Counted from the first letter of the stretch, positions 17,829-52,620 are shown. The stretch is DNA of 64,000 nt from a virus (IMGVR_UViG_3300036399_001951:62001-126000); one strand, 5' to 3'. Made by a program: numbers and translations. The notes: generated by a model not told the origin, from the letters alone.

Positions 17829-19781
17829 ATGCGTCATATACAGCCTTATGCAAATGATTTTATATTCGAATCAAATAATTTAGATAAATATTTTCCGGGC
17901 TTACCTGCTCTATTATATAGAGCGTCCAATGTTGATATAATATTAGAAGAGGGTAGAAATTTAAATCATATTGAATCCGTTATTCCAGAAGATATTCTAC
18001 TTGAAGCTGAATTAAATATGCTTCTTCATGAAGGATCAGCTGCAGTTACTAATTATCATAAAAATCTAGCGATTGGCAAAAACGTATTAGTTGAAAGCCT
18101 GGCTAATTCTATTCCGAAAGAGATAAAAGAAGCCTTTAATAAATTACAAAGAGAATTTAAAAAACTAAATAAAAGTCAGGTAAATAAAATATTTGAAGAG
18201 GCTGAGGCTAAATTAAATGCATCAGGCATGGATATCCCAACTGATTTTAAAGGAAAAGACGCGGCATTAAATGTATCCGGAATGGATATCCCAACTGATG
18301 CCGATGATGTTTCATCTGAATTCGAAAAAGATTTCCAAGACGTCATGAAAGGCATTGAATCAAATCACGACTTTGCTGCTCAAGTTCAACCTGGAGAGAG
18401 ACCTATATTATCTATTTTAAAAAATTTATGGAATGCATTAACAGAAGGTGGAAGTGCTATTGGAGTATTCCAATTTATATTAGATATAGTTGGCCTAGTA
18501 GGTAGCTTTTTTGAACCTATTGGAATGGTTGCTGATGCAATCAACGCTATCATCTATATGGTTAGAGGAAAATGGATGCTTGCTATAATCTGTGTAATTG
18601 CTGCAATAATTCCATTAGGTGGAGATATTATTAAAGGATTCTTTAAAGCAGGAACTAAGGCAGCTAAGCCGGTTATGGACATTGGCACCGTATACTTCTC
18701 AGCTGCAGGTAGAGCAACAGTCGGTTCAGCTACAATTTCTAAGGAAGTAGTTGAACTGGCGGCCAAAGCCTCTCCGGATAGTATTAAGGCTCTTAATTAT
18801 ATCGGAGCAAGTACAGGTCCTGCGGTTACTGGATTTATGAAATACGTAAAAGGTTTCTTTGATAAGTTTTTAGCATCAGTAGTTGGATGGATTCCTTTCA
18901 TTGGTAAGCCGCTAAGGTCTTTCTTTGAAGGAATTGGAAATATAATTGCTCAATTTGCAGGTAAGGCTACTAATTTTGCAAATGATATTCCTCAAATAAC
19001 AGCACAGGCACAGGCTAAGGTGCTAGATGATTTCTTTGCTGCAACTGCAGTTCAAGGTGCGGAAATTACAGCAAAGGGAGATAAATTAGTTGTTAAGAAT
19101 GCTAACGGAATCGTGGAGCTACCTGGAAATGTATTGAAGCATTCTGATATGTTGGCTAGCCGATATGGTAATCAACTATCTAACAATATATTAAAGCAGG
19201 TAGATAACAACGTTGCCGCTTTTTATACTTCAATGTCAAATGTTATTGGAAAAACAAGTAGTCAATATGGAAACCTTCAGAGATTTGGTAGAGGGGCAGT
19301 TAATACCTTTGTATTTACTAAAAAATTGCCTCTATTCATAGGTAAACAGGTTTTAAAATGGATTTCAGGAGATCCTACTCAGCAATTTACGGATTCCGAA
19401 TATGAGGCATGGGGAACTGCTGCCTTAAGTGATATGGCTCGTCAAAGAAGAGATAGGAACTTGGAAGAAAACCCAGATGCGTTTTATGATGTTCCAGTAT
19501 TCGATGGATTAGAGGACGATGAATTCACTAGAGTTGGAACTAAAGTCTTAAATGACTATGCTGAGAAATTTAATCTTCCAAGCATAGGCATGGTTGGTTA
19601 CTATACTCGTGGAGAAAAGGATAAATTACCAGAGGATGTAGAGAAATTCTACAATTCATGCTATGCTGATAGAGTAGGAAGTGGAATGTTACAGGATATG
19701 GAAAATTTTAGAGACGAAACTGGTATATTTGAATCTAAGCGTTCAGCTGGGATGAAGTATATTAAACCTTTTATTATTTAA
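17829..19781 (+). CDS. Tagged virion protein with pretoxin-like hydrophobic segment
   Basis: A 650-residue protein. Its N-terminus (HIQPYANDFIFES) fits the shared tag. Two near-identical 10-residue stretches (N-A/V-SGMDIPTD) lie around residues 135-160. Residues about 215-285 hold a long hydrophobic region with GLVGSFFEPIGMVADAIN and AIIPLGGDIIKGFFKAG, resembling the pretoxin membrane-associated segment of bacterial polymorphic toxins. More amphipathic helices follow. The C-terminus ends MKYIKPFII. A packaged, membrane-inserting ejection protein is a plausible role, inferred only. It overlaps the convergent NUDIX gene by 4 bases. Confidence 0.65.
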   Translation: MRHIQPYANDFIFESNNLDKYFPGLPALLYRASNVDIILEEGRNLNHIESVIPEDILLEAELNMLLHEGSAAVTNYHKNLAIGKNVLVESLANSIPKEIKEAFNKLQREFKKLNKSQVNKIFEEAEAKLNASGMDIPTDFKGKDAALNVSGMDIPTDADDVSSEFEKDFQDVMKGIESNHDFAAQVQPGERPILSILKNLWNALTEGGSAIGVFQFILDIVGLVGSFFEPIGMVADAINAIIYMVRGKWMLAIICVIAAIIPLGGDIIKGFFKAGTKAAKPVMDIGTVYFSAAGRATVGSATISKEVVELAAKASPDSIKALNYIGASTGPAVTGFMKYVKGFFDKFLASVVGWIPFIGKPLRSFFEGIGNIIAQFAGKATNFANDIPQITAQAQAKVLDDFFAATAVQGAEITAKGDKLVVKNANGIVELPGNVLKHSDMLASRYGNQLSNNILKQVDNNVAAFYTSMSNVIGKTSSQYGNLQRFGRGAVNTFVFTKKLPLFIGKQVLKWISGDPTQQFTDSEYEAWGTAALSDMARQRRDRNLEENPDAFYDVPVFDGLEDDEFTRVGTKVLNDYAEKFNLPSIGMVGYYTRGEKDKLPEDVEKFYNSCYADRVGSGMLQDMENFRDETGIFESKRSAGMKYIKPFII

Positions 19782-20260
19782 CTAATTCGATCTAATATAA
19801 TTAATTGTTCCCTGTGTATTAATTCATATGCCTTCATGATAGGAACAAAGCCTGCCCAATCAATTTCATGTAATTGAAGTTGTTCTTTCGGAACTCGATC
19901 TTCAATCATACCTAATTGTCGAGGATCTTTAATATTTAGATAGAAATATATTAATTGATGGCTTAGTCTATTTCCTTTATAAATATCAATTACATCAGGT
20001 GAAGGATTTAAATCTGATGCTTCTATGATTATACCTGTTTCTTCTCTAAGTTCCCTAACTGCGGCATCAATAGGTTCTTCTCCTTCTTCTATTTTTCCCT
20101 TAGGAATTCCAAGAGCACTCTTTCTCCAACTAGCTCCAGTTGGGTGAACTAATAATATCTTACCTTCCCAGGATATCGCAACCCCTGCGGTATTTCTTCT
20201 AGCTGGACCAAATGCCATGTCTAGAGAAGATGAGCTATATTCATCAAATCCCTTTATCAT
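19778..20260 (-). CDS. NUDIX hydrolase
   Basis: 160 residues with a complete Nudix box, G-x5-E-x7-REL-x-EE-x-GI (GKIEEGEEPIDAAVRELREE, about residues 50-69, then TGI). It hydrolyses a nucleoside diphosphate linked to another moiety; the substrate cannot be read from sequence. The N-terminus MIKGFDEYSSSSLD resembles the shared tag but lacks the usual Glu, so packaging is uncertain. Its start overlaps the bS21 gene by 17 bases in another frame, so it is the third gene of a minus-strand operon. Confidence 0.9.
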   Translation of the reverse strand: MIKGFDEYSSSSLDMAFGPARRNTAGVAISWEGKILLVHPTGASWRKSALGIPKGKIEEGEEPIDAAVRELREETGIIIEASDLNPSPDVIDIYKGNRLSHQLIYFYLNIKDPRQLGMIEDRVPKEQLQLHEIDWAGFVPIMKAYELIHREQLIILDRIS

Positions 20261-20429
20261 ATCTATTCTTGTATTTAGCTCGATTTATTTCTTCTCGTCT
20301 CTTAACTGACTTCTTTTTAAATGTTTTTCTCTCCTTAAGCTCTTTAATTGTGCTTAATTTATCAACCTTTTGTCGATATTCCTTTAGCGCATATTCAATT
20401 TTCTTATTACCAATTGGAATAACTATCAT
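20244..20429 (-). CDS. rpsU: Phage ribosomal protein bS21 homologue
   Basis: 61 basic residues. The order matches bacterial bS21: a short strand (IVIPIGNKKIEYALKEYRQK), then KLSTIKELKERKTFKKKSVKR and a Lys/Arg-rich helix. In Bacteroidota, bS21 helps bury the 16S anti-Shine-Dalgarno end, and phage bS21 is thought to replace host bS21 on ribosomes. The ATG overlaps the upstream stop (ATGA), and no Shine-Dalgarno sequence is visible in front of it. The downstream NUDIX gene starts inside this one. Family call from recognisable pattern and length. Confidence 0.85.
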   Translation of the reverse strand: MIVIPIGNKKIEYALKEYRQKVDKLSTIKELKERKTFKKKSVKRREEINRAKYKNRYDKGI

Positions 20430-21277
20430 AAATATTTTGAATAATTTAAAGTATGTTTAGATTTAATTAGAGCAGAATCATAAAACTTTCTTTTGTAATA
20501 TGATTTAGTGTGCTCCTCATTAATTTTATTTTTAACCCAATTAGGAAGTCGACTCTTATAGAAATCTCGATAAATAGACTCATATAATAATTTAGATTCA
20601 TGAGGATTTAAATCTAAATTTCGGTCAATTGATTCTACAAATATTTTTCCATTAATAGATTCAATTATATTTACATTATATACGTCTAAATTAAATTTCT
20701 TATTTATGGATTCACATATATTTTCTAGATCTTTAGAATATTGAAATCCGGTTAATTCTACGTCTAATGGAAATTTATTAATCCATTCAACTACACTAAT
20801 TGGATTACCTTTAAATCCTAAAACTTTAAATCTGGTTCTAGCAACTGGATTCTCTCTAAATTTAGAATATATCTTTTCTGCATTCCTTAAAGATCCAATT
20901 GATTTATGTTCGTCTTTAAAATTTTTACCTATTGCAGTTATTGGAAAAGTCAATGATTTTACATTTCTAATGCTATCCACTTCGCTTGGCAAATATCCAA
21001 GATCTTTAAATGATTCTAAAACTGATTCCTGATTTGGAAGCATTGTAGAATTGTATTTATGAGTTAGGCTCTCATTTATAATTTGAGTGGTCTCATTAAA
21101 GGTATCAGTGATAATAATTGGAAAGTCTATTGCAGCCTCCATTAAATCAAACTTATTCTTTATAACTTTAAAATAGGAATGATTAAAATTTTCACTCGTG
21201 GCTATTCCAATCTTATTTAAGAAATTAGAAGGATCCGAAGAGAATTGAGACGAATACTGATCGAAGCTCTTAATCAT
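20426..21277 (-). CDS. Hypothetical protein with tag-like N-terminus
   Basis: A 283-residue protein starting MIKSFDQYSSQ, near-identical in style to the NUDIX start two genes on. No enzyme motif recognised; it is rich in Asn, Lys and Ile with a basic C-terminus. It is the first gene of the minus-strand operon with bS21 and NUDIX and has its own late-type promoter upstream. It may be a virion cargo protein if the N-terminal peptide is a capsid-targeting signal. Confidence 0.6.
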   Translation of the reverse strand: MIKSFDQYSSQFSSDPSNFLNKIGIATSENFNHSYFKVIKNKFDLMEAAIDFPIIITDTFNETTQIINESLTHKYNSTMLPNQESVLESFKDLGYLPSEVDSIRNVKSLTFPITAIGKNFKDEHKSIGSLRNAEKIYSKFRENPVARTRFKVLGFKGNPISVVEWINKFPLDVELTGFQYSKDLENICESINKKFNLDVYNVNIIESINGKIFVESIDRNLDLNPHESKLLYESIYRDFYKSRLPNWVKNKINEEHTKSYYKRKFYDSALIKSKHTLNYSKYL

Positions 21278-21337: not shown

Positions 21338-22435
21338 ATGAATTCATTTAGCACATGGCAACAATTAAACGAAGGCTTATTCAACCCAGCAAATAAAGGA
21401 AAAGAGGTCATGCTTACTCCGGACGGAAGAAAGCAAATTGTTAAATATAAAGTTCAAGGAGATAATAAGTTTTTAATAAAATTAATTAAAAATGCAAGTA
21501 TTATCGACGAAGGAGGAAATCTAACTAAGACGGGTGCTTCTAAAATGTTTGAATTTATTAATAATCAATTTGAGATTACTGATGTAATTGGAACATTAAG
21601 TGACGCTTGGTTTAAAGATAAAATTTTAATTTACACAGTTAAGAAGGATACTCAATACTCGGAAGGGGAAGGAGAAAAGGGAAGAGAAAAGGTTCAATTT
21701 ACCGTAGCAAATAGAGCAGATTTTCCAAAGCTTCCACCTGACGCTAAGTTTGTAAATTCGGCAATTGCCGAGACCGCGGGATCTGAAGAAAATGCAGCTG
21801 TTGTTACTCAAATTGTTACAGATAATAAGGAAACTGTCGTTAAGGATGATACTAATGAGAATCCAGAGGAAATAAGACAGGAAGAAACTCAAGATGTTGA
21901 AGTAGAAGAAACTCAAGATGATGCTCTTATTGGAAAGAAATTTAGATATTCCATGAGAACTAATGGAAAACTATATCTAATGGAGTTTATGAATAGTGGA
22001 GCTCTACAGGCTGATATAATTGGAGAAAGTAATCCGAACGGAGTAGTTAGTTATGAAAATAATGAATCAGGAGGAACCATCAATTGGACAACTGATATTG
22101 ATGATACGCAATCAAGCGTATCCTGGCTTAAAAATTGGGGATCAGGCACTCTATTTACAGATCAAGAAATCACTAATAAAGTTGATAGAGAATTTTTTCT
22201 TAAAATATTCACAGATGAAGAATATAGAAATAAGATCATTGCGGATTATGAAGCAGAGTGGGGAGGTTCAGAAATGACCGTTGAGAATCTAAGAAAGATG
22301 CTTTATTACAAGGACAATACTAGGATATTCCCTGAAGCAGGTAGTGTTGCAAGTAACGAACCTTCAGCAGAAGAAAAGGATTTACCTAGTGGATCCTACG
22401 GTGGAGGAGGAACTTATACAGGTCAAATCATTTAA
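21338..22435 (+). CDS. Tagged hypothetical virion protein
   Basis: A 365-residue protein. N-terminus NSFSTWQQLNEG fits the shared tag. A folded N-terminal part (to about 130) is followed by an acidic disordered linker (about 150-200, rich in Glu, Thr and Val), a second folded region and a Gly/Ser-rich C-terminus. No family is recognised. It is the first of three co-directional tagged genes leading to the lysin. Confidence 0.6.
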   Translation: MNSFSTWQQLNEGLFNPANKGKEVMLTPDGRKQIVKYKVQGDNKFLIKLIKNASIIDEGGNLTKTGASKMFEFINNQFEITDVIGTLSDAWFKDKILIYTVKKDTQYSEGEGEKGREKVQFTVANRADFPKLPPDAKFVNSAIAETAGSEENAAVVTQIVTDNKETVVKDDTNENPEEIRQEETQDVEVEETQDDALIGKKFRYSMRTNGKLYLMEFMNSGALQADIIGESNPNGVVSYENNESGGTINWTTDIDDTQSSVSWLKNWGSGTLFTDQEITNKVDREFFLKIFTDEEYRNKIIADYEAEWGGSEMTVENLRKMLYYKDNTRIFPEAGSVASNEPSAEEKDLPSGSYGGGGTYTGQII

Positions 22436-22452: not shown

Positions 22453-24027
22453 ATGTACAACCCGAAATTATACATGAATATTAAAAATTATGGGAATTAT
22501 ATTGCTGAAGCAAGCGCTGTCTTGTCAGAGGAATTGAACCCTAGATTAAAGCAATATCTAGAGGATGATCCTTTTCTTGAATATTTAGCAACTAAGTTTT
22601 CTTCTCTTGAATCTGGAGAAACATATGAATTAACTGATCTTCCAAAATCAGAGTATGGTCTTCGAGAAGAGGATAATATTTGGGTAAAAGTAGATAAGTC
22701 TGATCCTAAAATTCCTAAATTCATGATGTGGATTATGAATGATGAGTACCTATACGGTGGAATAGATTTCAACTTAGCTGCAACTATATTATATGAAGCA
22801 GGTAACGTAGGAAGTGCTGTTGGATACGTTGGAAATTTAATAGGCGGTTTATTCGGTAAAGGGGATCCCGGAGATTCTGGAACTGATGAAGATACTGTAG
22901 TGGCAGTTTGTGGAGCAATGGCTGCAATTGCAGCTGAAAAATCAGTTGATCCTAAATTATATTATGATAAGCTAGCAGAGGCATTCAATCAAAAATACGG
23001 AAGCTTAACTGATTTTTTAGAAACTGAATTTTCAGGTAGAGCAGAATCGGCAGCATTAGCTGCATTTAGACAACCAATTGACTCTTCAGTTTCTAGAGGT
23101 TTAAATCTTGGAAGTATTTTACTTGATATCGGACTTACTATTGTTACATTTGGAGGTGGAACCGTAGTAGCAAGTGCTTTAAGAGGAGCTGGAGCTGCCG
23201 CTAAATCTACTAGAATAGGAGCCGGGGTTGTAAACGTAGGAAGTAAACTTCTCAAAGGACCTGCAGCAATTGCAGCTAGATTTGGAGGATGGGTAGGACT
23301 AAGTGCTGCGCAAAAAACAACTTATTTAGGATCTGCGGTTAAAGTTGGAGAAGAAATAAGCTATATAACTCGAACTGGTAAAAATGCAGGAGCTGCAAAT
23401 GCATGTAAAATAATAGACATAACTGAAAACGGAGTTCAATTACAAAACGTGGCTAAAGGAAATACTTTTATGGCAAGTCTAGATGATTTTATATTAGGAG
23501 CTCCTGCAGCAACAGGTAATCGTATTTTAGATGCAGCTGGACTTACAGCTACTGCAGCTGGACTTGCATTAGCTACTAAAAAGACATCAGATATAGTTGG
23601 AGCATCTTCAAGTGATGTAAACGCAGACGGCGCAAATTGGGCAGAAAAGGGAGCTGAGATTATGGGCTGGTATGATACACTAGCCGCTGATCCAAATCAA
23701 TATATGGCATCTTTAGGAGGATCCGACGCAGCTGGATTGGCTCAAGCAATATTAGATTTAAAGAAAGGTTCTGGATTATTTGGAAATACTACCGATCAAG
23801 AAGAACTAGCAATGGCTCTTATTATATTAAGCTTAACTCCAGAAGGAGCAAAGCAGGTAAAAGATGAATATGCTAAACTAGACAATGTTCCGGTATATGC
23901 AGTAATCGACGACGAATTAGGAGGAGATATGGGTCTCTTTGCTAAATCTTACTGGTCAGCTTGTACTGGAGAAGGAAACATGACAGGGCCAATTAAAGGA
24001 ATCCTTACTAAGATTAGAAAAAAATAA
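22453..24027 (+). CDS. Tagged virion protein with long hydrophobic Ala/Gly-rich region
   Basis: A 524-residue protein whose N-terminus (YMNIKNYGNYIAEA) fits the shared tag. Residues about 215-300 hold a Gly/Ala-rich hydrophobic region (ILLDIGLTIVTFGGGTVVAS, then LRGAGAAAKSTRIGAGVV), similar in style to pretoxin segments and to the 650-residue protein at 17829. The rest is helical. An ejected, membrane-active virion protein is a reasonable guess. It lies 12 bp before the lysin. Confidence 0.6.
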   Translation: MYNPKLYMNIKNYGNYIAEASAVLSEELNPRLKQYLEDDPFLEYLATKFSSLESGETYELTDLPKSEYGLREEDNIWVKVDKSDPKIPKFMMWIMNDEYLYGGIDFNLAATILYEAGNVGSAVGYVGNLIGGLFGKGDPGDSGTDEDTVVAVCGAMAAIAAEKSVDPKLYYDKLAEAFNQKYGSLTDFLETEFSGRAESAALAAFRQPIDSSVSRGLNLGSILLDIGLTIVTFGGGTVVASALRGAGAAAKSTRIGAGVVNVGSKLLKGPAAIAARFGGWVGLSAAQKTTYLGSAVKVGEEISYITRTGKNAGAANACKIIDITENGVQLQNVAKGNTFMASLDDFILGAPAATGNRILDAAGLTATAAGLALATKKTSDIVGASSSDVNADGANWAEKGAEIMGWYDTLAADPNQYMASLGGSDAAGLAQAILDLKKGSGLFGNTTDQEELAMALIILSLTPEGAKQVKDEYAKLDNVPVYAVIDDELGGDMGLFAKSYWSACTGEGNMTGPIKGILTKIRKK

Positions 24028-24039: not shown

Positions 24040-26442
24040 ATGAATTTTAATTTATATTTAAATAGATTATATGAAGTGGCACCGGCTTCTCCAGAATCTT
24101 ATGGAACAAATATTGGAATCACTGATAAATCTGATAGTTCATATAGAAACAGTCTTGAACAGCCGAAATCAGGCCCGATTGGAAATTTAGTAAATTCTGC
24201 ATGGGCAAATCTGAATGTCCCGACTAGAAGCATTCCAGACACCAGTAATGGTAACATGGGATGTGCTGCCGCTACTTCAATAATCTTTTATAGAGCAACA
24301 GGTTTACCTATTATTCCAGGTAAAAAGATAGTATTGGGTACCAGTACTCTATGGTCTTCCTTTACTAGCCGACCTAATGAATGGCAAAAAATATCTAATT
24401 GGCAAACTGATTGGCAGCCTGGAGATATAATCTTGACATCTAAGGGAAGTAAAGCTGGTCATGTTGGTGTAATAGTCGATGGTGGAAAGATAATATCTAA
24501 TTCATCAGGAGGATTTAACGGAGATAAGAAAGGACAAATTGAACAGAATTATTCAAGCGTCACATCTTGGCAATCAATTGCTAAGAGAAATCCAAAACAA
24601 ACTGCATGTTTTAGATATATTGGAAAATGGAGAGAATCATGGGGAGGTCCTATATATGATAAACCTCAGGATCCAAGTAGACCAGGTGAAATGGAAATGA
24701 AGCATATTGTTGGTGGAAACTCATTTGTAATGGGACCGGGTCCAGATCAACATGCAGGGTATGAAGGATGGATGAATCAAAACGCATGGGATATAATGGC
24801 CCCTGTTGGAACTCCAATATGCTCTGTGTTTTCTGGTAAAATAAATAAAGTTACTCTCTTAAGTGATAGCGAAAATACTTTTGGCTGGAGTGTCTTAATT
24901 TTATCTGATGATAATAAATATCAAGCATTTTATGCTAACTTTGGAGAAGTAATGCCTGAGATTAAAGAAGGATCAACTATTAAAGTTGGAGATATAATAG
25001 GATATATAGGAAAACCTAAGAGCAATCCTGATTGGAGAACTCACTCGCATATATCAATAGGTCCAGATTCTGGATCGAATCTAAAGAATTTTATAGATAA
25101 TTCTGGAAATATTAAAGGAACTGGAGATGTTCCAGTTAGAACAATAATCCCGGTTAAATCAACTCTAAGCGAGCTTGAATTAATAAAAGCTGAGGATTTT
25201 GTCGGAGATCGACTAATCTTAAAAATGGGATCTACTGGAGAAAAGGTAAGGGATCTACAGTACACACTAAAAACCAAGTATGGTTATCCTCTTCCTCAAA
25301 GTGGAATAGACGGAGAATTCGGACCCGAAACCAGAGCTGCAATTAGAGATTTTCAAAGAAAGAGAGGATTATTAATAGATGGAGAAGTTGGAGAGGAAAC
25401 CGCATATGCTCTAGCCAATAATACTCCGATTGATTTAGATAGAAAATCTAGTAAATGGTTAGATCAAACTAAATTTAAAATCTACGACAGTAAACATCGA
25501 AAGATTTTAATTGCTAAATTGGAATCAAAGACATATATCAAAATTAAAAATAGATATGGAACTGAGATAGGAGACGCTCGACTTGAATCCGGTAGAATTT
25601 CAATAAATTATCGAGTTAAAGGAGATAATATAAATCTAGACGGATCTGATCCAAAAGACTCTGTTTATAAGGGAATATATAACATATTTAATAGAATATC
25701 AGGTGGAATAATATCAGAGATACCTACAAATACTGAAAAAGAAATAATTACTCCTGAAACAGAGGAAGAAGACGTAGTTAGCGGAGATTTTAAAATATCG
25801 CATAGATATTCTGGAGTAAAAGCTACTAATATCCAGGCTTTAATAAATGAAATGAATCGCCAGGGGGTAAAAAATCCATATGCTCAAATTGCAATATTAG
25901 CGGTTATTGGCAAAGAATGTGGGTTTGTTCCAAAAAATGAAATTATGAGTTATTCAAAGGAAAGACTGCCTGAAGTATGGGGAGTTTTTTCAAAAACTGG
26001 AAAACGAGTAGAAAAAGGACAGGGTAAATATAACTGGAATGCTCTAGCTGCTCAGCATGAACGTCAACCTGAAAAATTAGCAAATTTTGTATATGGAGGT
26101 CAATTTCATAATAACAGAAGTGGTGACGGTTGGAAATATCGTGGTAGAGGATTTAATGGAATAACATTTAAATCTGGATACGAAAAATATTCTAGTATTA
26201 CTGGAATAGATCTTGTTAGTAATCCCGATAGATTGAATGATATTAATGTAGCATCAGAAGTAGCAGTAAAGTTTTTAATAAATGGAGTCAAATCTTTAGG
26301 AAAAGACCCTATGCAGTTTACAAATCAACAGGATGCAACGTATTATGCAACCAAAGCAAATGCAGGTGGACGCGAAATAAAATATGATGAAACCTATGCA
26401 AAGGCTAAAGAAGTAGAGAAAAACTTTTTAATCACAGCATAA
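24040..26442 (+). CDS. Multidomain peptidoglycan hydrolase (CHAP-like, M23-like, PG-binding, GH19)
   Basis: An 800-residue protein with a tag-like start (NFNLYLNRLYEVAP). Domain 1 (about 65-200) is CHAP-like, with Cys in MGCAAATS (about 75) and His in AGHVGVIV (about 141). Domain 2 (about 230-345) is LytM/M23-like and keeps HSHISIG, but the HxxxD metal site reads QNAWD and the YAH site reads YAN, so it may be inactive. Domain 3 (about 390-460) is a PG-binding repeat (QSGIDGEFGPETRAAIRDFQ). Domain 4 (about 590-795) is GH19-like, with GKECGF and GDGWKYRGRGFNGIT. It is a virion-associated or internal lysin rather than a simple endolysin. Confidence 0.88.
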   Translation: MNFNLYLNRLYEVAPASPESYGTNIGITDKSDSSYRNSLEQPKSGPIGNLVNSAWANLNVPTRSIPDTSNGNMGCAAATSIIFYRATGLPIIPGKKIVLGTSTLWSSFTSRPNEWQKISNWQTDWQPGDIILTSKGSKAGHVGVIVDGGKIISNSSGGFNGDKKGQIEQNYSSVTSWQSIAKRNPKQTACFRYIGKWRESWGGPIYDKPQDPSRPGEMEMKHIVGGNSFVMGPGPDQHAGYEGWMNQNAWDIMAPVGTPICSVFSGKINKVTLLSDSENTFGWSVLILSDDNKYQAFYANFGEVMPEIKEGSTIKVGDIIGYIGKPKSNPDWRTHSHISIGPDSGSNLKNFIDNSGNIKGTGDVPVRTIIPVKSTLSELELIKAEDFVGDRLILKMGSTGEKVRDLQYTLKTKYGYPLPQSGIDGEFGPETRAAIRDFQRKRGLLIDGEVGEETAYALANNTPIDLDRKSSKWLDQTKFKIYDSKHRKILIAKLESKTYIKIKNRYGTEIGDARLESGRISINYRVKGDNINLDGSDPKDSVYKGIYNIFNRISGGIISEIPTNTEKEIITPETEEEDVVSGDFKISHRYSGVKATNIQALINEMNRQGVKNPYAQIAILAVIGKECGFVPKNEIMSYSKERLPEVWGVFSKTGKRVEKGQGKYNWNALAAQHERQPEKLANFVYGGQFHNNRSGDGWKYRGRGFNGITFKSGYEKYSSITGIDLVSNPDRLNDINVASEVAVKFLINGVKSLGKDPMQFTNQQDATYYATKANAGGREIKYDETYAKAKEVEKNFLITA

Positions 26443-27144: not shown

Positions 27145-27498
27145 ATGAAAGTTAAGAATTTTTCAGGATTCATGAGATCTAAGTTAAATGAATCAATGGG
27201 CGAGGAATACGATGAAATGGGAATGGGCATGTACGGTGCAAATCCTGAAGACGCTGATGAAGCTGACGAAGACGCTGATGCCTCTGACGAAGATGGAGCT
27301 GACGAAGAGCCACTTACTTTAGAAGATCTTAAAGCTATGATCGACGAACTTACTGAAAGAGTTGAAGCTCTTGAAGGAGGAGGAGACGAAGATGGAGCTG
27401 ACGAAGATGGAGCTGACGAAGAAGGATCTGACGAAGAAGATCCTGCTGCTAATGAATCTTGGAGATTTAATAAATCTAGAAGATACAAGAGATATTAA
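27145..27498 (+). CDS. Acidic tagged protein, prohead-core-like
   Basis: A 117-residue protein. The N-terminus KVKNFSGFMRSKLNES matches the shared tag. Then come about 80 residues dominated by Asp, Glu and Ala (repeats of DEDGADE), interrupted by one coiled-coil helix (LEDLKAMIDELTERVEALE), and a basic aromatic end (RFNKSRRYKRY). T4 has an equally acidic small core protein, gp67 (PIP). A scaffold/core or internal-protein role is inferred. Strong late-type promoter and terminator flank it, as for an abundant protein. Confidence 0.65.
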   Translation: MKVKNFSGFMRSKLNESMGEEYDEMGMGMYGANPEDADEADEDADASDEDGADEEPLTLEDLKAMIDELTERVEALEGGGDEDGADEDGADEEGSDEEDPAANESWRFNKSRRYKRY

Positions 27499-33930: not shown

Positions 33931-33940
33931 TGTAGTGATT

Positions 33941-33960
33941 TATTTTAATTATTTATCTAT
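33941..33960 (-). promoter_or_regulatory. Late-type promoter
   Basis: Minus-strand ATAGATAAATAATTAAAATA, 11 bp before the AAA+ start; it overlaps the end of the VWA gene, allowing separate expression of the ATPase. Confidence 0.5.
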
Positions 33961-35470: not shown

Positions 35471-35479
35471 ATCGAAAAA

Positions 35480-39416: not shown

Positions 39417-40037
39417 TCCCATTAAGAAAGCAATTTTAACCATGCTCTTAATATATTCTGGGTCCTCTTCGGATCGATCGAATATATCCTTGGATCTTTG
39501 ATCAAATTCTATTTCTTTTAATTTTGCTTTTAAAGAATTTAGAACTGAAGATGGAATATTCATTTGTTTTCCCATTTTCTTCATTCTCATAATTTCAAGA
39601 TATTCTGGAATTTGAAATACTTTGCTATATAAATTTTCAAAGGCAATATATTCTGAAGACTTATGATGGTGTTTTCGTCCAGTGCCTGGGGTTAAGATTA
39701 CAACTGGCTTGCCATGAGACAATTCACTCCATAAATATCTTAAACCTCGAGTGTCATATTCTTCAAATTCTGGAAGTCCTTCCCAGCCTTCAAATTCATT
39801 TGGGGAATAAAAGATGTGATAGTCGTAGTTTTCAACCCCTTTAGAGATTCGGGTTTCTCCTCGAGCTGCCCAATATCTATCGGCTCCAATAAATTCTCCT
39901 GCCTTAAATTTAGCATTTTGAGCAATTATTATACCCATATTAAAGGACCCCTCTGATCCAAACTCAGTCTCATGATCTATTTTAGATTCATATACCTTTT
40001 TCCACCATCGATCATATGAGGCAACACTAGAATTCAT
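39408..40037 (-). CDS. Tagged hypothetical virion protein
   Basis: 209 residues with N-terminus SVASYDRWWKKVYESK, a shared tag. The middle has HGKPVVILTPGTGRKHHHKS, and the C-terminal half is helical and charged. No family recognised. Late-type promoter upstream on the minus strand. Confidence 0.62.
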   Translation of the reverse strand: MNSSVASYDRWWKKVYESKIDHETEFGSEGSFNMGIIIAQNAKFKAGEFIGADRYWAARGETRISKGVENYDYHIFYSPNEFEGWEGLPEFEEYDTRGLRYLWSELSHGKPVVILTPGTGRKHHHKSSEYIAFENLYSKVFQIPEYLEIMRMKKMGKQMNIPSSVLNSLKAKLKEIEFDQRSKDIFDRSEEDPEYIKSMVKIAFLMGLR

Positions 40038-40706: not shown

Positions 40707-41549
40707 ATGAATTCTGGACGTATTTTAAATTTTAATTCTTGGAAAATTAAAGCCCTTAATGAAAACATCGAAGACGAAGTGGTACAGGATCAGTTAGCAC
40801 AAGGAGAATTAATGGATCCTGATATGGGACCCAGTAAAGGATGCGATAATTGGTCCAGTACGGTAACAACTGCAAACACTCCATATCAAACTGGAGTGGT
40901 ATCATCAATTTGGAATGGATCTGGAAAACCTAAGATAACTATAGATAAAGCTGATAAAGATGGATTTGTCTTAACTTATTCTGGAGCGCCAAGTGGATCG
41001 ATATTAATTCATGGAAAATGCGGAGGTGGAGATACTATACATCAGGCTTGCATTGTTTTAGAAAGAGAATTAAATAAGCATTTTAAATGGTTAGCAAAAG
41101 ATGGAATCTTAGTTAAGCCAGATCATAGCGGAATTAAGTTAGATGGACCTGTTTCTGAGGGAGCCGGAAAAATGAGATTGACTATGACTATTCCTCTTCT
41201 TCCAGCAACTGAGGCAGATGCAATTACTAACTTTAAAAGAAGAGGAGGTTGGGGACATCCTCAATTAGCTGGATTTGGAGAAATGAAAACTGAAGCATCT
41301 ACTAAGAGTAGCAAAGGATGTGACGGCGTACACACTTATACCTATCCATCTCAATACCAATCAGATCAAAGCCAATGGTCAAAGGCAAAACTTACAGAAC
41401 ATTTTATATTCTGGAGAGATTTAGCTGGCTCCGGATACGTAAAGAAAGATGCAACAGATTTAGATATTCCTAAAGTTAATGTCGATATCGATAATACCAG
41501 AGTAGATAACATATATGTTGCCCCTACAATTGATTTACCTAAAAATTAA
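40707..41549 (+). CDS. Tagged hypothetical virion protein
   Basis: 280 residues with N-terminus RILNFNSWKIKALNEN, a shared tag. Two SKGCD motifs are present, near residues 44-48 and 205-209 (GPSKGCDNW and SSKGCDGV), possibly forming a disulfide or repeat. The middle is a mixed alpha/beta domain. No family is recognised. Late-type promoter upstream. Confidence 0.62.
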   Translation: MNSGRILNFNSWKIKALNENIEDEVVQDQLAQGELMDPDMGPSKGCDNWSSTVTTANTPYQTGVVSSIWNGSGKPKITIDKADKDGFVLTYSGAPSGSILIHGKCGGGDTIHQACIVLERELNKHFKWLAKDGILVKPDHSGIKLDGPVSEGAGKMRLTMTIPLLPATEADAITNFKRRGGWGHPQLAGFGEMKTEASTKSSKGCDGVHTYTYPSQYQSDQSQWSKAKLTEHFIFWRDLAGSGYVKKDATDLDIPKVNVDIDNTRVDNIYVAPTIDLPKN

Positions 41550-41958: not shown

Positions 41959-43659
41959 TTAAAACTCTGTTCCTTTATCAGATTTAGTTATCTTATTTCC
42001 AGATATAAATCTTTCTCTTTTAATAGTTATCTTATTTCCAGATTCAGTTTCTATCACAGTTCCATTTTTATCTTTAGATATAACAGTTCCAGTCTTTTGT
42101 ATGTTATCTGAAATATTTCCATTATCATCTTTTCCTTTATATACAATCTTATCTCCTTTTATAAGTCGATCATATGATACCGTTGTTTTTCCTATTAATC
42201 CACCGGTTGCCTTCTTTAATTTACTATCTACATTTTTCCCTACCGCAGAATTATCAAATTGAATAACATATTGATGTATAGAAATACCTACTCCCTGGTC
42301 ATTTGACTTATTTAAAAGTTTATTTATAACATACTCATTATCCTTAATTGGAGAAGGAGCTGTGTTTTTACTGACGATATTATATGATAGATTAAATTCG
42401 TTTACTGGACTTTGCTTTTTGATGTTCCACAATATTTCAACTGCTCCTTTTTGTATCCTAGATCCAAGAGAATTATATATCTCATCTTCAATGCATTTAC
42501 CTCTTCTCCAAGCTAACCATTGATTTCCAAGAGCGGTTTTTTCAGCTTTAAATGTTTCATCCGTTAATTTAGTCCCATCCTGTTTAACAGGCTCGCCTGT
42601 TCCGTCTCCAGATGTTTGAATTCCTTGCCAAGTTGGACCTATCGTAGAAGTCAATTGCAGTTTGGTAATAACATCATTGGGTCCTAATTCCTTAATTATA
42701 TTTTTAGCAAATTCAATATAATCTGGGTAATCATCATCGACAACTTCACCTTCCTCATCGTAATCATAATCCAAATTTTTCCAGGATATCCAAGTTCCCT
42801 TTTTTATTATTGGAGCGTCAGCCACTGGAGCTCCCTGTCCTTCTTCTTTACCGGGCTGTCCCTCTTTAGATATACTATATAAATATAAAACGTCGCTCTC
42901 CTTTTTAGCAGCGTCCTCATCTCCACCTTGTCGAGCAAACTGAAATCGTTTATTAAGTGATCCACCGGGTTCCATTAATGAATCGTATAGATTAGAATAT
43001 TGCAAAAAACTTCCGGTTGCCCAATTAGTTAAATTAAAAGTGTTTAAATATCCACAAAAATCAATTATTTTAGATATACCTTGATCCCATTTCTCAACAC
43101 TTTCCAATTTTCCATCTGGTTTTAATTTTTCAACACTATGTATTATTCCGTTTGCTCCTGGTAAATTAAAAGTTTGACTAAATTCTACCTTTAAAGATAA
43201 TTCTTTAAGAACATTTTCGTCTTTAATTATGTTATCTGCATAATTTTCAGCGCTAACGGAATTACCGATGCCCGCTAATACTAATTTAAATACATCTAAT
43301 TTTGTGACTGTATCATTACCTATCTTTTTAAATTTACTATCTATTAAGAAGGATACGTCTGGAATTTTATTAGTTAATTTCATTGCAGTTTCATACTGTA
43401 AAAAATTGTCAGTATTGTTAATTTCAAGATTATCACCAAAATCTCCAATTGATCCCCGTAACCCATTTCCTATTTTATATCCATCAGCTAAGCCTTCCGG
43501 TATGGCAACCTTAGTTTGAGGAATGCTTGCTTCAAATATTCGATTAAGTCCTTTATACATATGAGACTCCAGAATTCTTTGAGATTTTTCATAATTACGA
43601 CCAGCAGATTCATAAACTCTGAACCAGTCTTTAAACGGCAAGATTGAAGGTTTACTCAT
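41959..43659 (-). CDS. Tagged large virion protein, paralogue A
   Basis: 566 residues from the ATG at 43659, chosen because the late-type promoter lies between this ATG and an upstream in-frame ATG at 43692. The N-terminus PSILPFKDWFRVYESAGRNY is a shared tag, followed by a second similar helix (SQRILESHMYKGLNRIFEAS). A conserved C-terminal block includes TFKAEKTALGNQWLAWRRGK. It is a clear paralogue of the protein at 44367-46151. The last 80 residues contain KOW-like strands. No known function; large cargo or head protein by inference. Confidence 0.7.
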   Translation of the reverse strand: MSKPSILPFKDWFRVYESAGRNYEKSQRILESHMYKGLNRIFEASIPQTKVAIPEGLADGYKIGNGLRGSIGDFGDNLEINNTDNFLQYETAMKLTNKIPDVSFLIDSKFKKIGNDTVTKLDVFKLVLAGIGNSVSAENYADNIIKDENVLKELSLKVEFSQTFNLPGANGIIHSVEKLKPDGKLESVEKWDQGISKIIDFCGYLNTFNLTNWATGSFLQYSNLYDSLMEPGGSLNKRFQFARQGGDEDAAKKESDVLYLYSISKEGQPGKEEGQGAPVADAPIIKKGTWISWKNLDYDYDEEGEVVDDDYPDYIEFAKNIIKELGPNDVITKLQLTSTIGPTWQGIQTSGDGTGEPVKQDGTKLTDETFKAEKTALGNQWLAWRRGKCIEDEIYNSLGSRIQKGAVEILWNIKKQSPVNEFNLSYNIVSKNTAPSPIKDNEYVINKLLNKSNDQGVGISIHQYVIQFDNSAVGKNVDSKLKKATGGLIGKTTVSYDRLIKGDKIVYKGKDDNGNISDNIQKTGTVISKDKNGTVIETESGNKITIKRERFISGNKITKSDKGTEF

Positions 43660-43670
43660 TAATTTGTATT

Positions 43671-43687
43671 TATTTTTATTATTTATC
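43671..43687 (-). promoter_or_regulatory. Late-type promoter
   Basis: Minus-strand GATAAATAATAAAAATA, 11 bp before the start at 43659. It fixes the start of paralogue A. Confidence 0.65.
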
Positions 43688-43750
43688 AGCAAATTAATTA
43701 AAATATATCATTTACGTTAGTATATTATATTTAACTAAAATTTAAAAATT

Positions 43751-44338: not shown

Positions 44339-44351
44339 TCTTCCCTTTTTT
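44321..44351. terminator. Bidirectional terminator
   Basis: AAAAAAGGGAAGA / TCTTCCCTTTTTT palindrome between convergent genes at 44338 and 44367. Confidence 0.88.
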
Positions 44352-44366
44352 GCTTTAATTTAATAT

Positions 44367-46151
44367 TTAGAATCCTCCAGTATCAGTATCTTTTTTACCT
44401 ACAGTTGCCAAAGATTTAACAAATTGAGCATCACCAGGTCCTTCAGTTACTTTTACTTCAGTTCCATCCTTTTTAGCAATATAAAGCTGATTCGTATCAG
44501 AGTCCCTTCTAACAATTTCCTTTTCAATTTCTAGGAATTTTCCGGTCTTTTCTCCCCTTGCCATTTCTGGAACTTTAACTATGATTTTATCTCCTTTATC
44601 TAAATCTCCAAATCCAACCTTATCTTTTCCGGCTAATCCGAATGTTATTTTTTTCATCCAATTTGCCTTTAAATCAGTTAGAGCCTTAGTATCCCAAGTA
44701 TATCTATATCTATAAAGAACTAGGCTTTTAGTTGATCCAGTAACAGTTCTTTTAGCTCTAACAAATTCAGTATCTACTATTTCTTTAGGAGCAACTCCAG
44801 CAGAATTAACTGTATATTTTAAATTTTTACCTCCAGCAAGACCTTGTTTTTTAACTTGCCATTCGATTGTAATAGCATCTGCAGTAATTCTATCTTTTAA
44901 TAATTCCCTAAGAGCGTTTTCAAATTGTTTACCTCTTCTCCAAGCTAACCACTCATTTCCAAGAGCAGTTTTTTCAGCTTTAAATGTACTGTCAGTCAAT
45001 TTTCCACCACTAGGATCTCCAGATCCATTAGATTCAGGTACATTTGCAACTCCTGGCCATGATGGGCTTGCTCCAGTTACTATTGTCATTGATGTAATTT
45101 GATCTCCTTCTTTTAGATTCTCTACAATTTTTTGAGCAACTCCTTGAATTTCTGGAAAACTAGAATCTACAGGAAACGGGCCATCTCCTTTCGCGGTCTT
45201 AGCATTCGCAAATTCAAAATCATTAAATTGTATTAATATTTCCTCACTTAGTCCCTCAACCCCTTGTGTAGTTGTAGTTGTAGTTTCAGTAGTTCCTGCC
45301 TCAACCCCTGCTTTAAAAGGAGAATAGATATAAAAAGATGACTCTGCCTTTTCAACTCCCTTTGCTTCTATTCCAAACTGAAGTATCTTATTCGCATCGA
45401 GACAGTTTTCAAGATCAACATATTGAGTACAATCTCCATTTGCAAAATTAATAATATTAAAGGTATTAACGTAGTTACATACCACCTTTGGATTATTAAC
45501 TGGAATTGTTGATTTTCCCTGTCTAGTATTTAACTCTGTTCCCCCATTTTCTATCTTTGCGCTACTACTAATCCATCCGTTTTCTCCCACGGTTGCTCCA
45601 CTGAATTGAACTTCCCCGGCGGGTACTACCTTTAGTCCAAGCTCTTGAATTCTTTTGATTGCAGATTGAGCATCATTTTTAGGATCAAGTCCGTCTATTA
45701 ATTGATCCCCAAAATATTCAATGCCGTGATATCTTCCAATTCCACCGATCATAAGTTTAAATACATCGAATAGAGCATCCATACTGCTAGACTTGCTCCA
45801 AGCTGGATTGTCAGTATATCTTCCTGACATGATATATAACGCTGGCATTGCCTGCCAACCAATTGCCTTATTCATTACCTCAACTAAGATACCATCTTCT
45901 GCTTGATCTACCCATCCCCATGCAGGTGTAACGGAACCATCGGATATATCATATATAGCATTACCCTGTTTTACAGCCGGCACTTCGCCAACTCCATTTT
46001 GTTTTGAACTATTGCTTCGTTGTTCAAATATTCTCTGAAGGCCTCTATAAGATCTGGATTCCAGAATCTGTTGAGATTTTTTAAAATTTCGACCAGCTTG
46101 CTCATAAACTTTAAACCAGCTTCCGAAAGGTAAAATTTTTGGATCTTTCAT
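44367..46151 (-). CDS. Tagged large virion protein, paralogue B
   Basis: 594 residues. The N-terminus PKILPFGSWFKVYEQAGRNF is a shared tag and is followed by SQQILESRSYRGLQRIFEQ, as in paralogue A. The shared C-terminal block is TFKAEKTALGNEWLAWRRGK. A Thr run (TTETTTTTTQG) marks a linker near residue 290. Most of the sequence is beta-rich. Function unknown. Late-type promoter upstream, bidirectional terminator downstream. Confidence 0.7.
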   Translation of the reverse strand: MKDPKILPFGSWFKVYEQAGRNFKKSQQILESRSYRGLQRIFEQRSNSSKQNGVGEVPAVKQGNAIYDISDGSVTPAWGWVDQAEDGILVEVMNKAIGWQAMPALYIMSGRYTDNPAWSKSSSMDALFDVFKLMIGGIGRYHGIEYFGDQLIDGLDPKNDAQSAIKRIQELGLKVVPAGEVQFSGATVGENGWISSSAKIENGGTELNTRQGKSTIPVNNPKVVCNYVNTFNIINFANGDCTQYVDLENCLDANKILQFGIEAKGVEKAESSFYIYSPFKAGVEAGTTETTTTTTQGVEGLSEEILIQFNDFEFANAKTAKGDGPFPVDSSFPEIQGVAQKIVENLKEGDQITSMTIVTGASPSWPGVANVPESNGSGDPSGGKLTDSTFKAEKTALGNEWLAWRRGKQFENALRELLKDRITADAITIEWQVKKQGLAGGKNLKYTVNSAGVAPKEIVDTEFVRAKRTVTGSTKSLVLYRYRYTWDTKALTDLKANWMKKITFGLAGKDKVGFGDLDKGDKIIVKVPEMARGEKTGKFLEIEKEIVRRDSDTNQLYIAKKDGTEVKVTEGPGDAQFVKSLATVGKKDTDTGGF

Positions 46152-46253: not shown

Positions 46254-47102
46254 TTAAACCGGTCCGGATCCCCAAAATATTTTATAGATCCACAGATCAC
46301 TGAGTTCCTTGTGTTTAGGCTCTGGTTTTAGGTGTCTGGCATCAGATTCAAAATCTTCAATCCTTGCCCCTCCACCAGGAGAAGTAATCCAGTTGAAGTT
46401 AATAAAATTATCTCCATAGGTATCGGTCTCCCATTTTACTAATTTTGCCAGTTCCTTCAATTTATTTTCCTGTGAGGTCTTTTCTTTTTCAGGAACAGCA
46501 GGGTCCTCCTTCTTTTTTTGAACATATAATTCTTTACTCGGTGGAGAAATAACTACTGCTCTGGCACCGTGATCAGTAGCCATTTGCACAAGGGTCTGAA
46601 TATTAGTTTTTACATATTCAGCAGTATGATCCCCTCCCCAAATATCATTGCTACCCCCTAAGATAGTAATGATATCATAGTAGTTAGCCCCTTTTTGAGA
46701 CAATCGGGTCCTTAAATTATCAATCATCCAGGTAGTACCTTCCCCTCCTTTAGCAACTCGATCTACGGTTACTCTAGGTTGAGATTGAGAGATATCAGCA
46801 TTTAATCTTTGGCCTGCCCACCAGCCATAGAATTTTCCGCCAGTTGTACTTGCAGTATTACTGTCCCCCACAAATAGGAGATTTAGGACCTTACCTTGGG
46901 CCAGGTTTTCCAGATTTTCTTTTCTCCCCTCGACATCCCCCTTTATAAGTTCAACAAATTTATTGAGCCCGGGTCTCTTTACTTGCCAGCCTCCACTTGG
47001 TAATTTACGATAGATTGAATCTGGCAAGGTAGGATAGGTATAGTAACCGGATCTTTTATCCTCGAATACCCGGTTCCAGTCTTGATATTTTTTAATCCAC
47101 AT
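46254..47102 (-). CDS. SGNH/GDSL hydrolase, tagged
   Basis: 282 residues. The N-terminus WIKKYQDWNRVFEDK is a shared tag. SGNH blocks are visible: I is LLFVGDSNT (nucleophile Ser, about residue 80), II has the Gly in VAKGGEG, III is ILGGSND, and V is DARHL (catalytic Asp/His). It is an esterase or deacetylase-type enzyme acting perhaps on cell-wall or surface sugars. It is co-directional with, and 11 bp after, the NlpC/P60 gene. Base composition is GC-richer than the genes upstream. Confidence 0.85.
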   Translation of the reverse strand: MWIKKYQDWNRVFEDKRSGYYTYPTLPDSIYRKLPSGGWQVKRPGLNKFVELIKGDVEGRKENLENLAQGKVLNLLFVGDSNTASTTGGKFYGWWAGQRLNADISQSQPRVTVDRVAKGGEGTTWMIDNLRTRLSQKGANYYDIITILGGSNDIWGGDHTAEYVKTNIQTLVQMATDHGARAVVISPPSKELYVQKKKEDPAVPEKEKTSQENKLKELAKLVKWETDTYGDNFINFNWITSPGGGARIEDFESDARHLKPEPKHKELSDLWIYKIFWGSGPV

Positions 47103-47113: not shown

Positions 47114-47695
47114 TTATTTTTTATTAGGATTGGTCCATCTGCCGTAGCCTCTGATTGGTCCCCACCAGCCTTTGGCTTTTACCCCAGTCACTTCCTGAAT
47201 TCCCTTGGAACTGGAGGCATGGATCATAGTAAAGTCTCCACCTTCAACTGCAGAAACAATTCCTACGTGACCTGCACCATTGAATCCAGGATCTGATTTA
47301 AAGAACACCAGGTCCCCTGGTTTAAGATCTGTAAATTCAACCTTTACTGCCCTCTTCTCCTGACCTGGAGCATGACCTGGAAATCCACTATATAGAGCCG
47401 TATCCAGGGTACCATCGGCCTTATTAAACTGACCAGTTGACTTTAGTACCCATTTTACAAAGCCGCTACAGTCAAAGCCCGGTGAACTGTTTCCGCTTAC
47501 CACAGGATCTGTTGAAGCCTTAGGTCTTTGGCCTCCCCACTTATAGGGCACCCCAATCTGGGACTTAGCGTATTTTAGTACTAGTGATGCGGTGCTAGCC
47601 TCAGGACTGGACTCTGGAGTACTCGGATCCCCTGGGATTCCAAACAGGTCCTCTGATACCTGACCCCATCGTTGATAGTTTTTAATCCATTTCAT
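47114..47695 (-). CDS. NlpC/P60 cysteine peptidase, tagged
   Basis: 193 residues. The N-terminus KWIKNYQRWGQVSED is a shared tag. The catalytic domain (about 38-185) has QIGVPYKWGG, nucleophile Cys in FDCSGFVKW (about 75), His in GAGHVGIVS (about 145) and a third polar residue in MIHASSSKG. It cuts peptide stems of peptidoglycan. With the SGNH enzyme downstream it forms a two-gene wall-modifying unit. The tag suggests delivery inside the virion rather than action as an ordinary endolysin. Confidence 0.9.
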   Translation of the reverse strand: MKWIKNYQRWGQVSEDLFGIPGDPSTPESSPEASTASLVLKYAKSQIGVPYKWGGQRPKASTDPVVSGNSSPGFDCSGFVKWVLKSTGQFNKADGTLDTALYSGFPGHAPGQEKRAVKVEFTDLKPGDLVFFKSDPGFNGAGHVGIVSAVEGGDFTMIHASSSKGIQEVTGVKAKGWWGPIRGYGRWTNPNKK

Positions 47696-49384: not shown

Positions 49385-49978
49385 CTATCTGAAACGACCC
49401 CTATAGAGACGACTCTCGTTTGTTGGAGGTGTCTGCTGCTCTATCGGAGATTCAGTACCTGGTAATCCTCCTAGGATCTGGGTTCCTTCTAGATTAATTT
49501 TAACCGTGAGCTTGCCACCTTCTACGTTACCAACTAGCTGAAATACTATTTGCTTGGCGTATTGAGTTACAGCTTTTCCTGGACCAGTTATGACTCTAGG
49601 AATATTGACCATTAAATTGCTACTATTAAAAGTTATAGTACTGCAGTTGAGAGCAGAATCCCATTTTAAATTTGCAGCATCAATATCAGTAGGGTTCTTG
49701 ATTAATGACCAGTCTTTCACTGCAATTGTAGTTGCAGCCATGGATCCGCTAACCACCCGAAATCCTCCTGAAATTTTAAGCTGAAGAGTCTCAGCTTCGC
49801 CAAAACTAGTTGATTCAAGCCAGGCTGTCATTGACTTGGAATCAGCTTGATTAGCTTTTACTAGATCCTGACCCTGCTTGTCCATAAGACTGATTTCAAG
49901 ATCTTCGGGTTTTACATTAATCACAGACTCGGTCGCTTCATTTACGAACTGTCTGAAATTTTTAATAAATCTTGCCAT
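49385..49978 (-). CDS. Tagged hypothetical virion protein
   Basis: 197 residues. The N-terminus RFIKNFRQFVNEATES is a shared tag and the closest in this window to the T4 form MKTYQEFIAEA. The rest is a single beta-rich domain with no recognised family, ending in a short basic tail (ESRLYRGRFR). Confidence 0.65.
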   Translation of the reverse strand: MARFIKNFRQFVNEATESVINVKPEDLEISLMDKQGQDLVKANQADSKSMTAWLESTSFGEAETLQLKISGGFRVVSGSMAATTIAVKDWSLIKNPTDIDAANLKWDSALNCSTITFNSSNLMVNIPRVITGPGKAVTQYAKQIVFQLVGNVEGGKLTVKINLEGTQILGGLPGTESPIEQQTPPTNESRLYRGRFR

Positions 49979-50338: not shown

Positions 50339-50351
50339 TAGCCCGGGAGTA

Positions 50352-51340: not shown

Positions 51341-51382
51341 TAAATATATTCCATCTAATTAGTAAATCTAATCTTAATAATT

Positions 51383-51401
51383 ATTATATTTACTATATAA
51401 C
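51383..51401 (+). promoter_or_regulatory. Early-type promoter
   Basis: ATTATATTTACTATATAAC, 22 bp before the ATG at 51423. Core TATATTTA followed by TATAAC, as before most genes from here to the window end. Confidence 0.65.
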
Positions 51402-51422
51402 AATAACTTAAAACTTAAAGAG

Positions 51423-51853: not shown

Positions 51854-51871
51854 GAACCAGTATAAGAAGGT

Positions 51872-52087: not shown

Positions 52088-52116
52088 GTTTCCCCCCAAC
52101 TGTTTGACCGAAAAAA

Positions 52117-52138
52117 AGCCAGCGAAAGCTGGCTTTTC
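52117..52138 (+). terminator. Intrinsic terminator
   Basis: AGCCAGC-GAAA-GCTGGCT with a GNRA-type tetraloop and TTTTC tail, between convergent genes. Confidence 0.88.
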
Positions 52139-52158
52139 TATTTTATAGATTTTAAGAT

Positions 52159-52620
52159 TTACATCCCCTTAGATCTCCCGCTCGGGTCGATAAATTTTCG
52201 GCCAATTCCAGTAAATCTATTATCTTTTTTAGCTTCAACTTCAAACGGTCTTGGCTCGTCAGACGTTACATATGTATCGTAGAACGATTCTACATCTTCA
52301 CCTGTCTGATCATGATACCAATCTAACATACTCATGATATCATTTGCTTGTCCTCTAAATGTAACCTCAGGATTACCTCCACCTGGACCATATGGAACAA
52401 GACCAATAATTTGCAAATCAAATTGTTCGCAAATTTCATGTAACATTTGTAGAAAATCATTAGCTGATTCAGAAGGATCATATCCCAAATCGATGCTAAC
52501 TTGCTTTAATCCACCTCTGGATCTTTCCGCTCCGGCAGGATCTACCATTGAGCGCATATCCTCACCGCCTTCAAATTCTTCGCTTTCACGAATGAACGTA
52601 GAAAATTTCTTTACTCTCAT
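52159..52620 (-). CDS. Tagged paralogue of an early protein
   Basis: 153 residues from the ATG at 52620. A longer frame upstream runs through the promoter and is unlikely. The N-terminus RVKKFSTFIRESEEFEGG is a shared tag. The body (LHEICEQFDLQIIGLVPYGP to VTFRGQANDIMSML and EDVESFYDTY) matches the untagged early protein at 56076-56414 in the same order (IIGFWP, ITFRGEDDD, YYDEY). The tag therefore looks like an add-on. Late-type box upstream. The biochemical role is unknown. Confidence 0.7.
   Translation of the reverse strand: MRVKKFSTFIRESEEFEGGEDMRSMVDPAGAERSRGGLKQVSIDLGYDPSESANDFLQMLHEICEQFDLQIIGLVPYGPGGGNPEVTFRGQANDIMSMLDWYHDQTGEDVESFYDTYVTSDEPRPFEVEAKKDNRFTGIGRKFIDPSGRSKGM

Follow-up and report, generated by a model that had tools for sequence, protein, structure and literature searches.

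A recurrent N-terminal peptide, probably a capsid-targeting propeptide of the T4 kind, on late-type proteins of a T4-like phage

The 64,000-nucleotide stretch of viral DNA analysed here (the window; IMGVR_UViG_3300036399_001951:62001-126000) covers positions 62001-126000 of a 136.7-kb linear, incomplete IMG/VR record, and 19 of its proteins, together with five encoded outside it, begin with a related leader, or tag, of 12-21 residues. This peptide is probably (at about 0.85) a T4-type capsid-targeting propeptide in two parts, in which an aromatic pair would direct proteins to the prohead core and a terminal Glu would mark the site of their release. The T4 capsid-targeting sequence as a kind is already known; what is new, within the literature searched, is how widely the tag is used and on how many kinds of enzyme, its internal copies, and its match to the repeats of a putative scaffold fused to the prohead protease.

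The record encodes a T4-type tail sheath (gene at record positions 1146-4106, at the left edge of the record) and a baseplate wedge, and therefore belongs to a T4-like myovirus. Its large terminase shares 31-34% identity with those of Sphingomonas phage PAU, Tenacibaculum phages PTm1 and pT24, and uncultured large phages; terminase neighbours including Prevotella, Tenacibaculum and Flavobacterium phages hint at Bacteroidota as a candidate host. A search with the tail sheath yielded 79 related loci; the relatives used below have sheaths about 57-78% identical to that of this phage (74% in G005). Proteins are named by their start positions in the window; gene starts are the first ATG unless noted otherwise.

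The tag and its two halves

A preliminary description of the window had proposed that 19 proteins with unrelated bodies share an N-terminal peptide of the form (I/V)K-x-(F/Y)-x-x-(W/F/Y)-x(2-6)-E, comparable to the capsid-targeting sequences of T4. All 19 starts are indeed the ATG of open frames with the N-termini it had quoted. The literal pattern fits eight of them (seven in a scan of open reading frames (ORFs) that took the first ATG as start, and 52620, which starts at another ATG); the motif itself is looser: an aromatic residue, two residues, a second aromatic, zero to eight residues, and (L/I/V/M)-x-E, the first aromatic being commonly preceded by a basic I/V-K. Aromatics three apart are found in the tags by both profile and pattern, and a processing-type (L/I/V/M)-x-E site ends the tag in 17 of the 19, the exceptions being 20260 and 21277. 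The bodies are mostly different, as had been claimed, save that 43659 and 46151 are paralogs (32%, 4e-61).

Since the genome is A+T-rich, gene starts yielding I, K, N, F and Y might mimic such a motif by chance, and some untagged genes (28069, for example) look similar by eye. Against this explanation, which is barely credible, the literal pattern matches 10 N-termini among 127 ORFs of the whole record, where internal windows predict 0.06 and shuffled N-termini 0.08, and the early genes of the record lack the tag. The preliminary description had proposed a profile scan of the phage proteins. With a gapped profile that combined the aromatic pair and (L/I/V/M)-x-E with a spacer of 0-6 residues, and that was trained only on N-termini of the relatives G005, G006 and G010, 159 N-termini of the record were scored: 16 lie at p<=0.003, where 0.48 would be expected, and 14 at p<=0.001, where 0.16 would be. 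In per-protein scoring, which padded very short leaders, 15 of the 19 window proteins reach p<=0.005. The T4-spaced motif, counted over six phages, is about nine times commoner at N-termini than in protein interiors (Fisher p=3e-20), and three long relatives each have 13 to 23 strict matches where 2 to 3 are expected. The possibility that the peptide is no commoner than in random starts is thereby refuted for the whole set, its counts being far above chance, although the single weak members 24040, 40037 and 17829 could be chance matches.

The two halves of the tag correspond to a division described in T4 internal protein (IP) III, in which residues 4 and 7 serve targeting and residues 8 and 10 serve processing, and in which targeting survives an Asp at position 10 although processing is blocked (PMC9026906). 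In both systems a short N-terminal peptide, with aromatics three apart and a terminal (L/I/V/M)-x-E, is carried by late proteins with unrelated bodies; the spacing of IPIII is matched exactly by several tags of this phage, and others have a longer spacer, as in IPI (MKTFKEFTSTTTPVSTITEA). Unlike T4, with its three IPs, this phage has about 24 tagged proteins even in an incomplete record, together with large enzyme bodies, a frequent I/V-K before the first aromatic, and internal copies of the tag in some genes.

Two proteins, 20260 and 21277, had been singled out as lacking the Glu, and both do carry only the first half of the tag. Orthologs of 20260, a Nudix protein, have the full tag including Glu in three relatives (G003, G006 and G010), so the Glu was probably lost in this phage; the single ortholog of 21277 (G006 169031, beginning MRLKKFLEY) likewise lacks it. 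By analogy with the Asp-10 result in T4, these two proteins could be packaged yet left uncut.

Beyond the window, further strong N-terminal tags begin at record positions 8389, 9129, 56286, 56564 and 58593, and an internal tag occurs at residue 105 of the protein at record position 57238. Relatives also contain internal tags (G010 165764 at residue 89, G002 23862 at residue 53, G010 188076 at residue 52 and G006 194558 at residue 57), and in each case another Glu lies a few residues upstream as a candidate cleavage site. Such genes may represent two cargo domains joined around one tag.

Modularity and expression class

Orthologs in the relatives retain the tag. At the level of sequence the tag is modular, as seen in one pair of paralogs within the window and in 47102 and 47695, whose lipase and NlpC/P60 domains start only near residues 75 and 48. 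The untagged member of the pair is as follows:

56076..56414 (+): untagged paralog of the 52620 protein (blastp 6e-20)

Homology joins residues 39-148 of the tagged copy (52159-52620, minus strand) to residues 3-109 of the untagged copy; the former has a late-type promoter, and the latter the early-type TATATTTA...TATAACTTAAAA. From this arrangement, one domain appears to be supplied twice, packaged once and made early once.

Expression signals extend this picture to the whole set. The late promoter core TAAATAA lies at most 45 bases from 17 of the 24 tagged genes and from 8 of the 15 structural ones, compared with 2 of 38 early genes (p=6e-8 for tagged against early) and 2 of 17 genes of metabolism and replication, the gene classes being assigned from position and homology and the promoter classes inferred from sequence. 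By this distribution, the tagged genes look like structural genes in expression class. The early-type genes (54000-64000 and L005) have a common promoter, TATATTTA...TATAACTTAAAA, which differs from the late GATAAATAATAAAA found before tagged and structural genes.

The prohead protease, its repeats and a proposed mechanism

The preliminary description had recommended looking for a gp21-like protease outside the window; a Pfam search for S77 gave none in this incomplete record, and the matches came from records of relatives. Among the examined proteins of this incomplete record, none could be recognised as a portal, protease, scaffold or major capsid protein, so protease and scaffold are inferred from the relatives. 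Peptidase_S77 exceeds the Pfam cut-off in 13 of 16 related records searched, always within an open frame of 650-684 codons, which in G005 and G010 directly adjoins the Gp23 major capsid gene. The relatives' protease matches S77 better than S80; an alignment of nine of these fusions has T4 gp21 (5jbl, E=3e-5) as its sole PDB match, and one His and one Ser, presumably the catalytic residues of T4 gp21, are conserved among the relatives' protease, T4 gp21 and PAU gp151.

After the protease domain, all 10 ORFs examined contain about 10-11 tandem repeats with a 14-residue period and the consensus I-x-Y-(T/S)-E-Y-(L/V/I)-A-E-K-L-N. The repeat core, Y-T-E-Y-L-A-E, is nearly that of T4 IPIII, Y-Q-E-F-I-A-E, and fits the tag as (F/Y)-x-x-(F/Y/W)-(I/L/V)-x-E; within the protease-repeat ORFs, the frequency of the motif is about 59 times that inside other proteins. 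From its position, its fusion to the protease and its predicted helix, the repeat region is likely to be the scaffold. Structure prediction of the fusion (predicted local distance difference test score, pLDDT, 50) was too poor for a fold search and placed a long helix over the repeats at low confidence. T4 gp22, by inspection, has no such repeat array, and no description of scaffold repeats that match a targeting sequence was found in the open-access literature searched.

A simpler explanation, that the peptide is only a prohead-protease cleavage site common to all maturing head proteins and holds no targeting information, draws on the resemblance of (L/I/V/M)-x-E to gp21-type sites and on its occurrence in the relatives' Gp23 leaders (APLFE, for example). 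These Gp23 sites, however, have no aromatic pair ahead of them, whereas the tags and the scaffold repeats do, which indicates that the pair is more than part of a cleavage site; the pair is also kept in 20260 and 21277, where the Glu is missing. On this evidence, the cleavage-only explanation is improbable.

Comparison with other phages bears on the destination of the tagged proteins. In PAU, about 18 proteins begin MK-x-(L/I)-x-x-L-(Y/F)-E, against an expectation of 0.8, and this sister tag occurs on four of five proteins annotated 'internal capsid protein', the basis of that annotation not being stated in the record; the PAU capsid has strong density inside, beneath its vertices (PMC5646251). 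As in this phage, an N-terminal tag ending at Glu is common to many proteins, but with Leu in the first half in place of F/Y and W/F/Y, so that the logic is the same and the sequence different; the window tags do not fit the PAU pattern, and the PAU protease (246 amino acids), unlike that of the relatives, is not fused to a repeat array. With PAU included, N-terminal tags on internal proteins seem general in large T4-like phages, their sequence diverging by lineage. In P1, the N-terminal 30 residues of DarB suffice to carry a reporter into the head, although the Dar proteins, unlike those described here, have no common consensus and a different scaffold system is involved (PMC9024508). In phiKZ and SPN3US, many head proteins are cut after x-x-E by the prohead protease and a rich cargo is ejected (PMC5694885), but the propeptides mostly exceed 100 residues and the phiKZ protease is of the S80 type, not the S77 type of the relatives.

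That the peptide instead directs proteins to the tail, a membrane or an intracellular compartment is very improbable: several bodies are cell-wall hydrolases, often tail proteins in other phages, yet the recognised tail proteins of the record (sheath and baseplate wedge) lack the tag, the sister tag marks PAU 'internal capsid proteins', and the motif recurs in the protease-fused scaffold. Altogether, the capsid-targeting analogy drawn in the preliminary description gains support from both halves of the tag, the late-type promoters, the orthologs that keep the tag, the untagged paralog with an early promoter, the gp21-family protease beside a gp23-type gene in relatives, and the sister tag of PAU.

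Several observations weigh against capsid targeting as formulated here. Neither the protease, as sought by the Pfam S77 search, nor the scaffold is in this incomplete record; a profile of the repeats alone recovers the tags weakly, being too Tyr-specific for most of them, so that the link between repeat and tag consists in a common motif and its rarity elsewhere and not in close sequence identity; four window proteins fit more loosely than the rest (33930, p=0.013; 47695, p=0.025; 40037, p=0.048; 24040, p=0.07); and Glu is missing in 2 of 19, 20260 and 21277.

Under the proposed mechanism, tagged proteins would be made late, along with the head proteins, and the first half of each tag would present an aromatic-x-x-aromatic face by which its bearer docks on the prohead core in the manner of one more scaffold repeat. 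Scaffold repeats and tags alike would then be cut behind their Glu by the fused protease; the small peptides would leave, DNA would enter, and the freed cargo would remain in the head. Because the relatives' scaffold repeats carry the tag motif, the tag may mimic a single repeat: it would amount to one copy of the 14-residue unit, any late protein bearing one would co-assemble, and the same cut would release it. We hold the chances of this specific proposal to be evenly balanced. If it is true, T4 YQEFIAE would be a remnant of such a repeat or a parallel to it, and one gene could deliver two proteins by means of internal copies. No firm account of how the prohead core recognises the T4 targeting peptide was found in the literature consulted; tandem scaffold repeats with the same motif offer a concrete, testable answer.

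Ejection of the cargo together with the DNA is plausible, since wall hydrolases, a lipase, a Nudix enzyme and an AAA ATPase are among the many bodies whose enzyme activity would be of use during entry or takeover, and is the weakest step, since some tagged proteins may be core components. Indeed, tagged proteins might enter the head but act mainly as core or scaffold, or stay in the particle, with no ejected arsenal: PAU gp152, annotated as scaffolding, bears the PAU tag, and the acidic 27145 protein resembles the core protein T4 gp67 in acidity by inspection. Many bodies, however, are enzymes with no evident role in assembly (Nudix, lipase, NlpC/P60, M23, AAA ATPase), and we consider this alternative unlikely. 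Under capsid targeting, a tag this frequent would make packaged cargo predictable from sequence alone in uncultured T4-like phages, and would thus provide lists of candidate early-acting proteins, here cell-wall hydrolases, a lipase, a Nudix enzyme and an AAA ATPase.

Tagged proteins and neighbouring genes

The tags of the window are listed below with their per-protein p values.

17829..17870 (+): MRHIQPYANDFIFE N-terminal tag of a 650-residue protein, a weaker member (p=0.004)
20237..20260 (-): MIKGFDEY, targeting half only, no Glu; Nudix hydrolase, by its Nudix domain (p=0.003)
21254..21277 (-): MIKSFDQY, targeting half only, no Glu; 283-residue protein, no assigned function (p=0.002)
21338..21373 (+): MNSFSTWQQLNE tag; 365-residue protein, no assigned function (p=0.0007)
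22453..22509 (+): tag ending IKNYGNYIAE, exact T4 spacing; 524-residue protein with hydrophobic stretches, no assigned function (p=0.0007)
24040..24075 (+): MNFNLYLNRLYE, a loose tag; 800-residue cell-wall hydrolase (M23, peptidoglycan-binding, endolysin-like) (p=0.07)
27145..27192 (+): MKVKNFSGFMRSKLNE tag; short acidic protein (p=0.0007)
30477..30539 (+): tag ending RGFDSFAGRYRLNE; 386-residue protein, no assigned function (p=0.0007)
33880..33930 (-): MKFLKNFLDYSQMPMFE tag; MoxR-like AAA ATPase, by its AAA domain (p=0.013)
36557..36604 (-): MTIIKGFRDWSGQIYE tag; putative metallopeptidase, Pfam DUF2201_N (p=0.0007)
38392..38439 (-): MNRYIKSYKGWKLVNE tag; 346-residue protein, no assigned function (p=0.0004)
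39987..40037 (-): MNSSVASYDRWWKKVYE tag; 209-residue protein, no assigned function (p=0.048, motif fits)
40707..40763 (+): tag ending ILNFNSWKIKALNE; 280-residue protein, no assigned function (p=0.0002)
43609..43659 (-): MSKPSILPFKDWFRVYE tag; paralog of the 46151 protein (p=0.0005, alignment)
46101..46151 (-): MKDPKILPFGSWFKVYE tag; paralog of the 43659 protein (p=0.0005, alignment)
47061..47102 (-): MWIKKYQDWNRVFE tag; GDSL-type lipase/acylhydrolase, Pfam domain from about residue 75 (p=0.001)
47651..47695 (-): MKWIKNYQRWGQVSE tag; NlpC/P60 protein, Pfam domain from residue 48 (p=0.025, literal pattern fits)
49937..49978 (-): MARFIKNFRQFVNE tag, exact T4 spacing; 197-residue protein, no assigned function (p=0.0002)
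52585..52620 (-): MRVKKFSTFIRE tag; 153-residue protein with an untagged paralog (p=0.0005)

Orthologs of several members carry recognisable tags of their own: among four orthologs of 17829, that of G006 begins MHSFSEYL and that of G010 begins YILSRDQFVINES; those of 21338 begin MIKSFDTWSSLTEA; those of 22453 (43%) retain YxxYxxAVNE; an ortholog of 27145 has the tag MRVKNFAGFMKSRINES; and partial relatives of 24040 in G003 and G010 show a clear tag. Neither 21338 nor 22453, used as queries, matched any cultured-phage protein. A role for 22453 as the major capsid protein is ruled out by its hydrophobic stretches and by the Gp23 gene adjoining the protease in relatives; its predicted structure (pLDDT 43) was too poor for a fold search and was not used.

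Two look-alikes were left out of the set. The DNA ligase at 28069 has p=0.2, and its ligase homology starts at residue 1; the DUF192 protein at 27587, with a conserved PLFE, likewise has p=0.2. The latter (27587-28024, plus strand) has a 36-residue N-terminal extension in which PLFE is kept in orthologs, possibly a divergent tag.

Among neighbouring genes, the cluster at 31708-36604 (minus strand) encodes a MoxR-like AAA ATPase, a weakly VWA-like protein and a DUF2201 metallopeptidase, of which the first and last are tagged. The paralogs 43659 and 46151 (41959-46151, minus strand) have in common a 45-residue leader that is more strongly conserved than what follows it, and in which VYE, ILE and IFE are three candidate cleavage sites. 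Three mutually related sigma-factor-like genes occur in this one phage (38508-39416, 56990-57667 and L005:6010-6771, all on the plus strand). Two ORFs resemble phage-encoded GroEL and GroES on inspection of their N-termini by eye (L001:13925-15550 and L001:5236-5535, respectively, both on the minus strand).

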